Assembly: GCF_000151105.2 (NCBI RefSeq) | Contig: NC_014804.1 | Span: 682,001-746,000 of the forward strand | Direction of reading: 5' to 3' | Length of the DNA stretch: 64,000 bases | DNA from: Thermococcus barophilus MP | GTDB lineage: Archaea > Methanobacteriota_B > Thermococci > Thermococcales > Thermococcaceae | In this document: one piece after another, positions 524 to 5,548 of the stretch | How the letters are laid out: each line of letters begins with the position of its first letter | Numbering within the stretch: position 1 is the first letter of the stretch | Position numbers and translations under genes: made by a program | Notes under the pieces: model-generated | The model's input: the letters and a program-made list of their open reading frames with translations, nothing else | Database searches by the model: none | What the model was told of the DNA's origin: nothing

Positions 524-724
524 TCAAACTTCCTCAAGCTTCTTCTTAACATCTTCAGTGTATCTCTTTGTTTCCTCTAATACATTCCTAAGGTTGCTGA
601 GTTCAAGTTTGAGCTCACTCAGAGTTTTATTCATCTGATAGAAAGCAAAAACGACAATGACAATGAGGATTAAACCTAAAATTATTGAAATCCATCCACT
701 TGGTGTTCCACCATATGCGGGCAT
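524..724 (-). CDS. Small membrane-anchored coiled-coil protein (66 aa)
   Basis: The protein has one hydrophobic segment at about residues 10-29, followed by a charged helical tail with heptad-like leucines, so it is probably a membrane-anchored coiled coil. Its ribosome-binding site (GGAGG) lies inside the end of the upstream HTH gene, and the start codon follows that gene's stop by a few bases, so the two are translationally linked. It resembles in size and layout the 73-aa protein at 3989-4210, which ends the second related operon. I do not recognise a named family. Confidence 0.75.
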   Translation of the reverse strand: MPAYGGTPSGWISIILGLILIVIVVFAFYQMNKTLSELKLELSNLRNVLEETKRYTEDVKKKLEEV

Positions 725-727
725 CCT

Positions 728-1024
728 TCACTCCTCCTTCAGATTTTTTATAATGTCATTATCTATTACGAACCTAAAAGGTTTTGCCCTGTAGTATTTT
801 TTAGCTCTTGGATCACCGGGTTCAAGCCGGAGCTCACTTTCAACGAGATTCGCTTTTTCAAGTTTTTTCAAATGGAGATACAAGAGTTGTCTTGAAATGT
901 TAAGCTCTTTTGCAAGCTCATAAACATACCACTCCTTTTCACAGAGCATCTTGAGTATTTTGACTCTTATCGGAACACTTAATGCCTCCGCAACCACTGT
1001 CAGTTCTTGTATGCTTCCAACCAT
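728..1024 (-). CDS. Winged-helix (ArsR-like) transcriptional regulator
   Basis: The 98-residue protein has an ArsR-type DNA-binding fold: an N-terminal helix, a recognition helix near residues 45-62 (NISRQLLYLHLKKLE) and a wing containing a lysine/tyrosine-rich strand. I chose the ATG at 1022-1024 because GTGGTGAA directly precedes it; two in-frame GTG codons (to 1033) have no ribosome-binding site. No metal-binding cysteines are visible. It is followed by the 66-aa membrane protein in the same transcription unit. It could control the adjacent secreted-protein operons, but that is only inference from position. Confidence 0.85.
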   Translation of the reverse strand: MVGSIQELTVVAEALSVPIRVKILKMLCEKEWYVYELAKELNISRQLLYLHLKKLEKANLVESELRLEPGDPRAKKYYRAKPFRFVIDNDIIKNLKEE

Positions 1025-1031
1025 TTTCACC

Positions 1032-1085
1032 ACGTAATCTAAATTATTGCATAAGCCAGAATTCCCTTACGTACTATTATAAAAA
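1032..1085 (-). promoter_or_regulatory. Promoter of the HTH gene with inverted ACGTAA / TTACGT half-sites
   Basis: On the minus strand a TATA element (TTTTTATAA, 1077-1085) lies about 55 nt before the HTH start codon. ACGTAA at 1032-1037 and TTACGT at 1067-1072 form a widely spaced inverted repeat on either side of the expected transcription start. Autoregulation by the encoded HTH protein is possible; the half-sites are short, so this is tentative. Confidence 0.4.
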
Positions 1086-1108: not shown

Positions 1109-1258
1109 TCATTTTTTGGCGATTAGGTAGATCAGTACACCAATTAGTATGAACGGCAGCAGTAGGAAGGCTAACCTAAACAGCAGGAGGAATACTCCAA
1201 AGATTCCAAACCACCACCCCATTCTACCAAACATTGGGCCCCCAAATCCTCTGGGCAT
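1109..1258 (-). CDS. Small membrane protein (49 aa)
   Basis: The protein has a glycine-rich N-terminus followed by a long hydrophobic stretch (about residues 13-46) ending in two lysines, so it is almost entirely a membrane segment or a helical hairpin. I chose the ATG at 1256-1258 because GGTGA lies six bases upstream; an ATG at 1262-1264 immediately abuts the ribosome-binding site. It starts just after the 101-aa gene stops and is probably co-transcribed with it and with the DUF2202 gene. The family is not recognised. Confidence 0.65.
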   Translation of the reverse strand: MPRGFGGPMFGRMGWWFGIFGVFLLLFRLAFLLLPFILIGVLIYLIAKK

Positions 1259-1268
1259 TTTCATCACC

Positions 1269-1574
1269 CTACTCTGGTAGATACAACCAACCAACAATTT
1301 TATCATTATAATCAAGTGTAACCTTAATCCCAAAGGCAGTCTGATATGCACTTCCAATGCTCAGCTCTTCAATTGAGTAATCACCGACAATTTTTCCGAC
1401 ATAGTGACCATAATTATCACTGAGCTTTTGAACAATGCCTCTTGATGTCTGAAATTTCTCAACCTTTGTACTTCTCAAGACATTTAATGCATCTTCCTCA
1501 ACTTCTTCAACGGGAATTTCTTCAATTGGAAATTCCCCGTATTCAACGAAGTGAAACATTTTAACAGCTTCCAT
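1269..1574 (-). CDS. Protein with a domain shared with the secreted protein at 5018-5482 (101 aa)
   Basis: I chose the ATG at 1572-1574 because GGAGGGTGA lies immediately upstream. The last 60 residues align with the C-terminal half of the secreted protein encoded at 5018-5482: both contain SRG/PRG, then VQKL, then the block Y-x-GKIVGDY, then S-x-AYxT-x-x-GIKV and a final D-x-x-IVG. This copy has no signal peptide and carries an acidic N-terminal part. It lies between the DUF2202 gene and a small membrane protein gene, with short spacing, in what looks like one operon. Function unknown; the shared domain suggests that it works with the extracellular partners. Confidence 0.75.
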   Translation of the reverse strand: MEAVKMFHFVEYGEFPIEEIPVEEVEEDALNVLRSTKVEKFQTSRGIVQKLSDNYGHYVGKIVGDYSIEELSIGSAYQTAFGIKVTLDYNDKIVGWLYLPE

Positions 1575-1630: not shown

Positions 1631-2344
1631 TCACCATCTTCCTCCTCTAAATCCTCTCATACTTCTACCTTTATCATCCATTCCAGTGTTCATAGGGCTC
1701 GAGATTATCTCATTGTACTCATCCTCGCTGATTACTTGGGGTTCATATGTTATACCATAGTTCTGAAGCACGCTTGTGAATGCTCTCAAATGATTTTCTG
1801 AACCCGCCATGAGGTTTTCATATACCTGGATTATGTCGGCATTGTCAGTCTTTGCAATCCACTCCTCCAGATCCTTGATATCTGTCTCCTCAATAAGTGC
1901 CCCAACTTTGAGTGCATCTTCAACGCTTTGGCTTCCCATTGCTATAAGCTGGTCATATAAAGCCTGAAGCTCTGGGTTTGTGAATACTCCAACTTCATCA
2001 ACTGCTGGATCCTCAATGCCGTACTTTTCGAGTAAGCTTAACACTGCATCCATGTGCATCTGCTCACTGCTTGCTATGTTCTGGAATATCTGCAAACCGT
2101 ACATTTCATAGAGTGTTAAATAGACATCCCTCGCAAGCTTTTCCTCTTCCCTCATCCAGAGCAATCCATCAATCTCTTCCTGTGTGAGTGTGTCGTTTCC
2201 ATAGATTGCAACGTATGGTCTATCCCATGTTGTGTTGCTCCCTCTGTCCCATGTATCTGCCCACCATGGCATTGCTGCTACACTGCCGAATATAATACCA
2301 AACATGAGACCCAACAGCCCTAAACTTAATATCTTCTTCCTCAT
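1631..2344 (-). CDS. Secreted DUF2202 (ferritin-like) protein
   Basis: This is a 237-residue protein with an N-terminal signal peptide (positive RKK, hydrophobic core, AxA-type site near residue 25). The mature part matches the DUF2202 family, a predicted four-helix ferritin-like fold. Two helix motifs stand out: EEEKLARDVY near residue 75 and, later, SENHLRAF; the acidic and histidine residues in them are candidate di-metal ligands. The ATG at 2342-2344 is preceded by GGAGGAGGT. The signal peptide and the whole promoter are nearly the same as those of the gene at 5018-5482. It probably heads an operon with the 101-aa and 49-aa genes. Metal storage or redox protection at the cell surface is a guess. 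Confidence 0.85.
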   Translation of the reverse strand: MRKKILSLGLLGLMFGIIFGSVAAMPWWADTWDRGSNTTWDRPYVAIYGNDTLTQEEIDGLLWMREEEKLARDVYLTLYEMYGLQIFQNIASSEQMHMDAVLSLLEKYGIEDPAVDEVGVFTNPELQALYDQLIAMGSQSVEDALKVGALIEETDIKDLEEWIAKTDNADIIQVYENLMAGSENHLRAFTSVLQNYGITYEPQVISEDEYNEIISSPMNTGMDDKGRSMRGFRGGRW

Positions 2345-2359
2345 GTTCTTGACCTCCTC

Positions 2360-2410
2360 CATATGTAACTTCATTATTACATATGTAGCTGAACTTTATA
2401 AAGTTTTCGG
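2360..2410 (-). promoter_or_regulatory. Promoter/operator, copy 1 of a 51-bp repeat (CATATGTAA inverted repeat)
   Basis: On the minus strand a TATA box (TTTATAAAG within 2394-2404) is followed by an inverted repeat, CATATGTAA at 2360-2368 and TTACATATG at 2377-2385, lying where transcription should start. The whole block matches 5498-5548 at 50 of 51 positions. Its location between TATA box and start codon suggests a repressor operator controlling both operons. Confidence 0.7.
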
Positions 2411-2590
2411 TGCAAGTTAATGCCTCTGGATAAAATCAGCGTTCTTGAAGATAATCAGGTTGCAATATCCTGAAGGATATACAAAAAAGCAGAACCTCTC
2501 AATCTACTTTGCTCTTTCTAATTTTAGCAGCTTATTTAAGCATCATGATTTAATCTGCTAATAACTAAGCTGAAAAATATAAAACTGGAT

Positions 2591-3763
2591 TCAGGGCTGT
2601 TCTCTTCTTCTAACGGGCATATGCACTTTTCCTTTTATGATACCTCTGCCAGCTAAATAGCAAGTTCTCAGTTCTTCCCTAAGCTTTATCATAAGCTCCT
2701 GGGCAGTGTCATAATCACCGTTTCTTACAGCTGCTTTTATTGCCTCCATCAGTTGCAACGCCGCTGTTACATTGACCCCCAATCTTTCCATGACCATGAG
2801 CTGAGCTTCGACTCTTATGATTTCCCTCTGTAGCTTCATCTTAATGTCGCTCATTATCATTTTTCTAATATCTTCACCGGCAAATCTGATGACAACCTCT
2901 GCTTTGGATTTTGCGGCTATTGCAAGACCATATGCCAGTCCATACTTTCCACTGCTGTATGCATCTTTTGCATCCTCAAGTTGCTTTTCTGCTATTCTTA
3001 AGAGAGTTTTAAGGGCAGGATTTGTTGCATTCTCAGCGAGCTCTTTTGCTGTGTTCACTTTTTCCTCAGCTATTTGTATTGCCTCAAGGGCCCTCTCAGC
3101 AGTTATGTTGAGATGGAGCTCTGTGCAGTTGCATTCCTGCTTTCTAAGCTGTTTCATAATGTGAAGCATTGTTTGATTCATGGCAGGGGTTCCGATTATT
3201 GTGAAGTTGCCTGCCCTGACGTGCAGCCGCTCCATAATTTTTGTAATGTTCGTGGTTTGGTTCACCAGCACTATCATTGCCCTCTCACGGATTGCGAGCT
3301 GCAGTGCCTTTTCAATTCCTGCCAAGTCGGTACCTGCCACAAGGACAACTCTGTTCTGCAGCTGAAGCTGAAACCTCACTGTGGCATTTTTTATTACCGC
3401 CAAATCCGTTTCATACCTGTTCTGTCCCCACCATCTTTCAACGTTAATGCCTAAATTCTGCAGATCTTCAACGTATTCCTCCGGAACTGCCACTGGTCCC
3501 CCAATAATAATGACCTCATCTGGGGCATAGCTGATTATCTCCGCAGTTACATTGGGATTGTAGATTCCCCAAGGAGTCTTAACTATTACAACATTCACGT
3601 TTACCGTTATATTCGCAATATAATCCGCCAATGCACAGTCTGCCTCATTGTCACTCACTAAAATGACTACTGTGGTTTCTGACGCATTTACAGGCGTAAA
3701 TGTCAATGGGAGACCTAAGATTATCATGCCAAACACCACTGACAGCATTTTTTTCCACATCAT
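2591..3763 (-). CDS. Secreted protein with cell-wall-binding repeat 2 domain and helical C-terminal half
   Basis: The 390-residue protein starts with a signal peptide (about residues 1-27). Residues 28-200 resemble the cell-wall-binding repeat 2 family: an IIIGGPVAV segment is followed by a WGQNRYETD segment, close to the family's GG..aV and RyeT signatures. Residues 210-375 are predicted helical and charged, rich in Ala, Glu and Lys. There are about ten N-x-S/T sequons, consistent with an N-glycosylated surface protein. The start (ATG ATG at 3758-3763) has a GGAGGTGG site, and an upstream CTTAAATATA is the likely TATA box. It stands alone, with no close neighbour upstream. An S-layer-associated role is plausible. 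Confidence 0.85.
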   Translation of the reverse strand: MMWKKMLSVVFGMIILGLPLTFTPVNASETTVVILVSDNEADCALADYIANITVNVNVVIVKTPWGIYNPNVTAEIISYAPDEVIIIGGPVAVPEEYVEDLQNLGINVERWWGQNRYETDLAVIKNATVRFQLQLQNRVVLVAGTDLAGIEKALQLAIRERAMIVLVNQTTNITKIMERLHVRAGNFTIIGTPAMNQTMLHIMKQLRKQECNCTELHLNITAERALEAIQIAEEKVNTAKELAENATNPALKTLLRIAEKQLEDAKDAYSSGKYGLAYGLAIAAKSKAEVVIRFAGEDIRKMIMSDIKMKLQREIIRVEAQLMVMERLGVNVTAALQLMEAIKAAVRNGDYDTAQELMIKLREELRTCYLAGRGIIKGKVHMPVRRREQP

Positions 3764-3988
3764 TCTCCACCACCTCCATTATTTTTAATAAACAAGATAT
3801 ATTTAAGCTTTTTTCACGAAATCGTCACTTATTGTTTCTGTTTGTTCAATTTGAGCCCAGTATTTTGTCCAATTCCTTGTTGATTGTTAAATAACGTTTG
3901 CAATCGTTTATCTATGTTTAAAACCACATCAAAAGTCAATTTAAAGACATCAAAAGAACATTAAAGAAGTCAGAAACAGTTAAGAACT

Positions 3989-4210
3989 TTAAACTTCTTG
4001 AAGGACTTCATTGATGTGTTTGCTCTGATCCCTTAACTGCTGTGCCACTGAATTAGTCTGCTTGACCTCTTCAAGGAGTGCATCCAAGGATCTCTTCAGC
4101 ATATACAGTGAAGATGCAACCACAATGACCAAGACTGCCCAAAAGCCAATTATCAAATAATCTATCCTTGTCATTTCAGGATAAAAGGAGGGAAAATATG
4201 GCCCAGGCAT
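3989..4210 (-). CDS. Small membrane-anchored coiled-coil protein (73 aa)
   Basis: An N-terminal PGPYFPSFYP stretch precedes a membrane helix (about residues 18-38) and a polar coiled-coil-like tail. Its GGGGGAGGTTGA ribosome-binding site overlaps the end of the DUF4405 gene, whose stop codon abuts this start. It is similar in size and layout to the protein at 524-724. It ends the operon that begins at 5482. Confidence 0.75.
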   Translation of the reverse strand: MPGPYFPSFYPEMTRIDYLIIGFWAVLVIVVASSLYMLKRSLDALLEEVKQTNSVAQQLRDQSKHINEVLQEV

Positions 4211-4855
4211 TCAACCTCCCCCCTGTTTTGCTTTTGCTATGGCTTCAGCTAAGATTTCCTTAAACTGCTCTCTGTCCAACTCATTGTTAACCTCTACCAT
4301 CTCAAGCAGCTGATCAGGCTGTGCTTCAATATTATAGTCTGCCTTTAAGATTTCAACGAGTTTTTGGGGATCGACATCATACATCTCAGCAAGTTGCTCT
4401 AATGTCAAACTCTTCAGCATAGAGCCCGTTATCTCTATTGTTGTGTTATCAACCGTTACCGATATCCCTTCAGATGATGTAGTCTCAGATGTAGTTTCTT
4501 CCTCGGCAGTTAATGCGGCAAATGCAAAATATCCACCAACAAGTACTAAGCTAATTAAGATTAGACTTCCAGCCACTTTAACCCTACTTTTCTTAAATGC
4601 AGATTTAAGCATGACAACCATGCTGTTGAATCCGATTATTAAATGAACTGCCACTAAACCAATCATGACAAATCCCAGATATGTATGTACTGTTTCCCAA
4701 GTGTCCTTAGTTACACCCAAGAACGTCCATCCAATGGCGTCTGCTATTCTGCCTGACGGGGCTTGATAAAGCGCAATTCCAGATACCGCTATGAGTATAA
4801 ACACTACTGTTAAAACTAAGTCAACTGCTCCTCTTAACCACGCTGGTGCCTTCAT
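4211..4855 (-). CDS. DUF4405-type membrane protein, possible heme b binder
   Basis: Residues 8-30, 55-76 and 95-115 are hydrophobic segments, followed by an acidic, probably external domain of about 95 residues. The first part resembles DUF4405, a cytochrome b-like family. H57 and H71 lie 14 residues apart on the second helix, a spacing used for heme b ligation, but a single pair in a small protein is weak evidence. The C-terminal domain contains repeated EQLAEMY/DQLLEMV-like motifs. I preferred the ATG at 4853-4855, five bases after GGTGA; the ATG at 4859-4861 is an alternative. The gene overlaps or abuts its neighbours on both sides. Confidence 0.75.
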   Translation of the reverse strand: MKAPAWLRGAVDLVLTVVFILIAVSGIALYQAPSGRIADAIGWTFLGVTKDTWETVHTYLGFVMIGLVAVHLIIGFNSMVVMLKSAFKKSRVKVAGSLILISLVLVGGYFAFAALTAEEETTSETTSSEGISVTVDNTTIEITGSMLKSLTLEQLAEMYDVDPQKLVEILKADYNIEAQPDQLLEMVEVNNELDREQFKEILAEAIAKAKQGGG

Positions 4856-4860
4856 TTCCA

Positions 4861-4983
4861 TCACCCACAATCCTTTTTAGTGCATTCTTCTTTTTGAGCC
4901 GTTACATGTACGGGGGTAGCATTTTCTTTCTTCTCAATGATTAAGGATGATAACAAAATTTCGAGTTTTTTCAGCAACTCCAC
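4861..4983 (-). CDS. Small protein with C-terminal cysteine pair (40 aa)
   Basis: This frame has a GTG start (4981-4983) six bases after a strong GGAGGTG site, runs 40 codons, and its TGA overlaps the ATG at 4859-4861 of the DUF4405 gene. The product begins with an amphipathic leucine-rich helix (VELLKKLEILLSSLIIEKK) and ends in ECTKKDCG. The tight packing between the secreted-protein gene and the DUF4405 gene, plus the good ribosome-binding site, argue that it is real. No family is recognised. The two cysteines, five residues apart, could bind a metal or form a disulfide. Confidence 0.55.
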   Translation of the reverse strand: MELLKKLEILLSSLIIEKKENATPVHVTAQKEECTKKDCG

Positions 4984-5017
4984 AAAGCCCACCTCCAAAA
5001 ATAAAAAAGAAGGGAAA

Positions 5018-5482
5018 TCATTTCATAAGGAAGAATCCCACAATGTTTCCATCGTAGCTCAAGAAGACTTTTATTCCGTTCTGAGTCTCATATGCTTTGT
5101 ACACTTCAAGTGAGCTGAGGTCGTAGTCACCAACTATCTTTCCAATGTATTCTCCATCAAGCACTAACTTTTGCACTGTAATTCCTCTTGGAGTTGTGAA
5201 CCCCTCAATGGTGACACCGCTTAAATATTCTTGTATCTGCTGCTCATCAACATTGGCTTCTCCAAGGTACTGCCCTTTAATTCCAAGCCCCATAAACTGA
5301 GGAGTTCCCTTTCCATGCTCACCATTTTGACCATGCATGTATCTTGCTTTGACAAAGTTTTCACATGGACATTCTGTTGTGTTTGCTGTTTCTGAAGGGG
5401 CACCCTGGTATGCTGCAGCTGCTCCAAATACCAAACCAACCACTAAAGCCAACAACCCAACGCCCAATATTTTCTTTCTCAT
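5018..5482 (-). CDS. Secreted protein sharing signal peptide, promoter and domain with the DUF2202 operon
   Basis: The 154-residue protein has a signal peptide (residues 1-23) nearly matching that of the DUF2202 protein (both begin MRKKIL). A short linker with a CPC motif (residues 38-42) follows, then a C-terminal domain of about 70 residues that aligns with the 101-aa protein at 1269-1574 (VQKL, GKIVGDY, GIKV blocks). The ATG is preceded by GAGGTGATT. It is the first gene of an operon with the 40-aa protein, the DUF4405 protein and the 73-aa membrane protein. The CPC pair suggests a redox or metal role outside the cell, which is unproven. Confidence 0.8.
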   Translation of the reverse strand: MRKKILGVGLLALVVGLVFGAAAAYQGAPSETANTTECPCENFVKARYMHGQNGEHGKGTPQFMGLGIKGQYLGEANVDEQQIQEYLSGVTIEGFTTPRGITVQKLVLDGEYIGKIVGDYDLSSLEVYKAYETQNGIKVFLSYDGNIVGFFLMK

Positions 5483-5497
5483 GTTGAATCACCTCTC

Positions 5498-5548
5498 CAT
5501 ATGTAACTTCATTATTACATATGTAGCTAAACTTTATAAAGTTTTCGG
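5498..5548 (-). promoter_or_regulatory. Promoter/operator, copy 2 of the 51-bp repeat
   Basis: The block matches 2360-2410 with one difference. TATA element TTTATAAAG lies around 5532-5541 (minus strand reading). The inverted repeat CATATGTAA (5498-5506) and TTACATATG (5515-5523) sits between it and the start codon at 5482. Confidence 0.7.

Follow-up and report, generated by a model that had tools for sequence, protein, structure and literature searches.

The window analysed here is a stretch of 64,000 nucleotides from Thermococcus barophilus MP, and towards its beginning lie two operons that are both read from the minus strand. The first operon encodes, in this order, a DUF2202 protein, a 101-aa protein, a small membrane protein, an ArsR-type protein (fourth of the five genes) and a 66-aa membrane coiled-coil protein. 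The second begins with the gene for a 154-aa secreted protein. The features, in coordinates of the window, are as follows.

524..724, minus strand: protein of 66 aa with a membrane helix and a coiled coil, adjoining the ArsR gene; possible signalling partner
728..1033, minus strand: candidate regulator, a winged-helix protein of ArsR type that starts with GTG at 1033 or ATG at 1024 (HTH_5, E=2e-13)
1109..1264, minus strand: small membrane protein of 51 aa in the first operon
1269..1574, minus strand: 101-aa protein (no Pfam match; a homologue of the secreted 154-aa protein's C-terminal half)
1631..2344, minus strand: DUF2202 ferritin-like protein with a signal peptide (PF09968, E=9e-65; relative of MJ0754, PDB 3q4n, E=3e-63)
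2360..2385, minus strand: operator 1, a perfect 9-8-9 inverted repeat at the point where transcription of the DUF2202-ArsR operon is predicted to start
2395..2410, minus strand: promoter 1, with TATA box 2395-2402 and BRE 2403-2410 (from the sequence and the family-wide consensus)
3989..4210, minus strand: membrane coiled-coil protein of 73 aa with weak similarity to the 66-aa one
4211..4855, minus strand: DUF4405 membrane protein of the half cytochrome b561 type (PF14358, E=8e-17; PMC5898192)
4861..4998, minus strand: small Cys-containing protein of 45 aa in operon 2
5018..5482, minus strand: 154-aa secreted protein with a C-terminal all-beta domain (no Pfam match; structure model)
5498..5523, minus strand: operator 2, identical in sequence to operator 1
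5533..5548, minus strand: promoter 2, with TATA box 5533-5540 and BRE 5541-5548 (from the sequence and the family-wide consensus)

We compared the two promoter regions and found that the blocks at 2360-2410 and 5498-5548 are identical at 50 of 51 bases, the sole mismatch lying in the linker between TATA box and operator. On the minus strand both blocks read CCGAAAAC (the BRE), TTTATAAA (the TATA box), GTTYAGCTA (a 9-bp linker) and CATATGTAATAATGAAGTTACATATG (the 26-bp repeat); a Shine-Dalgarno sequence and ATG come next. The 26 bp that end each block are a perfect 9-8-9 inverted repeat, CATATGTAA-N8-TTACATATG, and the operator core is the six bases CATATG, downstream of the TATA box. Since the TATA centre would lie at about -27 in the standard archaeal promoter geometry, the dyad of the repeat is expected at about +1. 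The likeness ends at the BRE, and in the 60 bp above it 13 of 60 positions are identical, which is about chance. Thus the original prediction of a near-identical 51-bp block, with a TATA box and an inverted repeat at the expected transcription start, is borne out.

The coding parts had been described as diverged except at the beginning of the signal peptide. The likeness at the signal-peptide start stands, but no homology links the first gene of one operon to that of the other: one encodes a DUF2202 protein, the other the 154-aa protein without Pfam match. In the structure model of the 154-aa protein, residues ~75-154 have a pLDDT of about 90, and a fold search with this protein against the PDB gave no match below E=0.1. 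We also observed that the two operons, which are probably co-regulated, each encode a form of one all-beta domain that no Pfam family matches: a cytosolic form in the 101-aa protein at 1272-1574, which has no signal peptide, and an exported form in the 154-aa protein at 5021-5482.

Searching the whole genome (2.06 Mb) for the repeat returned exactly three copies, all at promoters, and a reversed-pattern control returned no match in the same 2.06 Mb. The third copy (G000:C1:1098409) occupies the same position before another DUF2202 gene, which encodes a predicted lipoprotein. This rejects the possibility that the block is a common repeat unrelated to promoters. Two more genes near the third operator (L007 10717-11769), a short one for DUF4405 and another for DUF2202, have no operator of their own.

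We then looked for the block in 94 Thermococcaceae genomes representing six genera. The exact repeat was found in 37 of the 94 when spacers of 6-10 were allowed, and every spacer found was 8. With the spacer fixed at 8 and up to 2 mismatches, 62 of the 94 genomes contain the repeat. A BRE-TATA match of 12 of 16 positions or better stands just upstream of 84 of the 87 distinct sites (0.9% of random 50-mers have one), and 76 of the 87 begin 8-9 bp after the BRE-TATA. BRE, TATA box and operator are kept in relatives across six genera. At the loci examined the gene downstream of the site nearly always encodes DUF2202, the 154-aa secreted protein or DUF4405. There is in addition a weaker class of site before a ~100-aa gene; the gene adjoining it resembles glycine dehydrogenase subunit 2. 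A variant site with a AATATGTAA arm occurs in Thermococcus genomes (L135 2181, L138 2315, L148 2491, L152 1881 and L172 2056) and precedes a conserved ~100-aa gene without Pfam match, possibly a further target.

A strong orthologue of the ArsR-type protein is encoded in 61 of the 94 genomes, and its distribution follows that of the site: both are present in 59 genomes and neither in 30, with 2 genomes having the ArsR gene only and 3 the site only (agreement in 89 of 94). The Fisher p value for this co-occurrence is 8e-19, and that for DUF2202 and the site is 3e-20; both overstate the association, as the genomes were counted as independent though they are related. Presence and absence were both seen within each of the five genera having more than one genome. 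In the three genomes with the site only, contig ends fall in the operon, and the two with the ArsR gene only are 77% and 85% complete.

The ArsR-type protein scores 50.5 bits against PF01022 (cut-off 22), which identifies an ArsR winged-helix domain. Its AlphaFold model (pLDDT 93) is a confident winged helix, closest to Phr and the ArsR/SmtB proteins. Homologues share the motif LA-x(2)-L-x-ISR-x-LL-x-LHL-x-KLE; S47, R48, L50, L51, H54 and L55 are invariant, as is the recognition helix. No conserved Cys was found in the homologue alignment, and the sole conserved His is H54, in the recognition helix. With no Cys conserved at all and no His conserved beyond that helix, the protein is unlikely to sense metal directly as ArsR/SmtB proteins do. 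The protein also falls below the cut-offs of the metalloregulator profile NF033788 (45.2 bits against 55) and the Phr profile NF053602 (35 bits against 320).

A small membrane coiled-coil gene usually adjoins the ArsR gene. It has 66 to 97 codons and encodes a membrane helix and a coiled coil in Thermococcales, Archaeoglobales, Bacillota, Alphaproteobacteria and Actinomycetota; at least one Bacillota locus (L066) has it in front of the ArsR gene instead. One bacterial partner shows a weak likeness to the PspB-like profile TIGR02976 (19.7 bits against a cut-off of 51.7), and the archaeal 66-aa partner gave no match to this profile.

The exact pattern was next scanned over 84,980 genomes, blind to any protein, and 42 sites were found outside the Thermococcaceae. 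Fifteen of these are placed immediately at the start of an ArsR homologue's gene (E<1e-12), where random positions in the same DNA would give 0.4, and 23 of the 42 lie within 2 kb upstream of such a gene. The other 19 have no ArsR homologue nearby, by our own estimate roughly the chance number in AT-rich DNA. The linked sites span Bacillota, Alphaproteobacteria, Actinomycetota, Archaeoglobales and Methanophagales, and the hosts include Brevibacillus, Bacillus, Lysinibacillus, Syntrophomonas, a Bradyrhizobium MAG, a Micromonosporaceae MAG, a Methanophagales archaeon and two Archaeoglobales; many of the outside hosts are MAGs, so some of these names could be wrong. In 20 of 22 linked genomes the ArsR-adjacent site is the only one with up to 2 mismatches. 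Both Archaeoglobales loci bring together the site, DUF4405, the ArsR gene and the membrane coiled-coil gene. Two more bacterial homologues, found by protein, have degenerate repeats upstream, with 3 and 5 mismatches, and the ArsR subfamily occurs in only 3 of 150 genomes surveyed of one bacterial order. What computation establishes is the operator, where it lies and which target genes it has, together with the tie between it and this ArsR in both archaea and bacteria.

The bacterial sites share the operator alone and not the archaeal promoter. About half of them have TTGACA, or a sequence close to it, 8 bases ahead of the repeat, so that in Bacillota the -10 hexamer falls in the spacer, inside the operator. 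The apparent ATG of the ArsR gene coincides with the final three bases of the operator in several Bacillota (L064 4521-4546, L075 7515-7540, L086 6271-6296, L079 2021-2046 and L062 610-635). If transcription starts within the operator there, a ribosome-binding site would not fit in front of this ATG, and the mRNA may be leaderless. A Methanophagales contig (L040) has operators at 4275 and 6194, 1.9 kb apart with nearly identical upstream sequence; only one is followed by an intact-looking ArsR start, which suggests a local duplication. A Thermoactinomycetaceae MAG has, between operator and ArsR gene, a gene (L060 1287-1724) that is weakly like cytochrome oxidase subunit I, below the cut-off, and whose product is again a possible membrane haem protein.

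Our preferred reading, to which we assign a probability of roughly 0.8, is that the shared block is the core promoter plus the operator of an autoregulated ArsR-type repressor (728-1033) that controls the secreted DUF2202, 154-aa and DUF4405 proteins. A likely controller can be named because the switch adjoins the gene for the same small DNA-binding protein across Thermococcaceae, unrelated archaea and bacteria. The original prediction had placed both operons under one regulator, which the co-occurrence within the family and the ArsR homologues at outside sites make very probable, and had proposed the HTH protein at 728-1024 as one candidate; with the association described above (Fisher p=8e-19 in the family; 15 of 42 outside sites at the start of a homologue) this protein is the likely regulator. 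The repeat and the gene order fit the behaviour of the ArsR family, in which a dimer sits on an inverted repeat in its own promoter and represses it, and autoregulation is suggested by the position of the ArsR gene in the first operon. From this we infer that the ArsR-type protein would bind the operator over the transcription start, a dimer on the palindrome covering about -13 to +13 and keeping RNA polymerase off. The bound dimer would occlude the core promoter in Thermococcales and bacteria alike, and the genes would stay repressed until a signal frees the protein from the operator. The protein could conceivably activate instead of repressing. Since the ArsR-type protein has no metal site, our leading guess, based on gene adjacency, is that the signal reaches it through the adjoining small membrane coiled-coil protein.

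The near-identity of the two blocks had originally been attributed to a recent copy or gene conversion. If a promoter cassette had been copied recently, or were still being converted, no special shared regulator would be needed, and the linker between TATA box and operator, which is not conserved between genera, is indeed identical at 12 of 13 positions here and at 13 of 13 in genome G002. However, the linkers of paralogues differ in other genomes (8 of 13 identical in G087 and 9 of 13 in G089), BRE, TATA box and operator are conserved over six genera and also at sites that are not linked, the third copy among them, and the bacterial sites have the operator without the archaeal promoter. We consider copying an improbable account of the identity as a whole. 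The conservation across six genera means that a recent copy is not needed, and shared function explains the identity of BRE, TATA box and operator since these were kept throughout. The best reading is that most of the identity comes from shared function; occasional local gene conversion of the linker is possible, though it is not what keeps the operator.

It is similarly improbable that another, unlinked regulator reads the operator and that the ArsR-type gene is just one more target. Autoregulated targets and regulators do look alike in co-occurrence, but outside the family the neighbours vary while an ArsR homologue, often with its membrane partner, recurs at the site. Nor do published motifs of other regulators fit. 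The CopR motif TTNNCAWWWTGNNAA lies upstream of the BRE, and here the CATATG core is downstream of the TATA box; the SurR pattern GTTn3AACn5GTT does not fit the conserved arms. We find it scarcely credible that the inverted repeat acts as RNA, in a leader hairpin, even though the palindrome is near the beginning of the transcript and stops shortly before the Shine-Dalgarno sequence. With the start predicted at the dyad, the transcript would contain only half of it, and no Rfam match was found in the region. Moreover an RNA hairpin would allow compensatory changes, whereas the sequence of the arms does not vary, and in Bacillota the -10 hexamer lies inside the repeat. An ArsR-type repressor acting at its own operator remains our interpretation.

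Judging from its domain types, the regulon resembles an iron or redox response of the envelope: its targets, ferritin-like DUF2202 and half cytochrome b561 DUF4405 proteins, suggest iron or electron traffic there. A two-protein switch common to archaea and bacteria, in which an adjoining membrane coiled-coil protein, rather than metal, governs an ArsR-type repressor and the same 18 operator bases lie over the core promoter in each domain, is a tentative proposal that we hold at a little under even odds. If the bacterial pairing holds, it would be an uncommon case of one repressor lineage and one operator serving the promoters of archaea and bacteria alike, and perhaps an instance in which an ArsR protein takes its signal from the membrane. 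Genes of unknown function that about two thirds of Thermococcaceae genomes carry now have a candidate regulator, a precisely defined operator and a brief list of targets.

The gene neighbourhood itself was described in 2015: for Thermococcus CL1_0239-CL1_0246, Makarova et al. proposed iron-dependent electron transfer (PMC5898192). That neighbourhood likewise has DUF4405 (arCOG04002), two ferritin-like proteins (arCOG03957), an ArsR protein (arCOG01679) and secreted and coiled-coil proteins, and the passages found on it mention no operator or shared regulon (PMC5898192). We found no account of the operator, the regulon or the cross-domain pairing in the open-access literature, which leaves out most subscription papers, and no open-access paper on DUF2202 in Thermococcus or on MJ0754; we regard operator, regulon and pairing as provisionally new. 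Among ArsR proteins, T. gammatolerans tg0841 is encoded by a gene induced by metals (PMC3407056) and is a lead only, not an established orthologue. CdsR of Bacillus thuringiensis, another ArsR protein, was set aside, as it has no reported binding motif and a different gene setting.

The window protein resembles the ArsR/SmtB repressors (CzrA, SmtB, NolR and BigR) in being a small winged-helix HTH_5 protein with an inverted-repeat operator at the promoter and its gene in its own operon. In contrast to them it has no conserved Cys, no conserved His outside the recognition helix and a score below the NCBIfam metalloregulator cut-off, and it has an adjoining membrane coiled-coil gene. Phr, the ArsR-related heat-shock regulator of Pyrococcus and thus also of Thermococcales, is the best PDB match by sequence (2p4w, E=1e-6) and by fold. 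However, Phr has ~200 aa and an extra C-terminal domain, only the winged helix aligns, and the window protein belongs to an unrelated orthologous group. TrmBL1 has a different motif and governs a sugar regulon. Its sites in Pyrococcus lie downstream of BRE-TATA and overlap the transcription start, so that TrmBL1, though of a different protein family, matches our operators in placement and provides a precedent for repression from there (PMC6316755).
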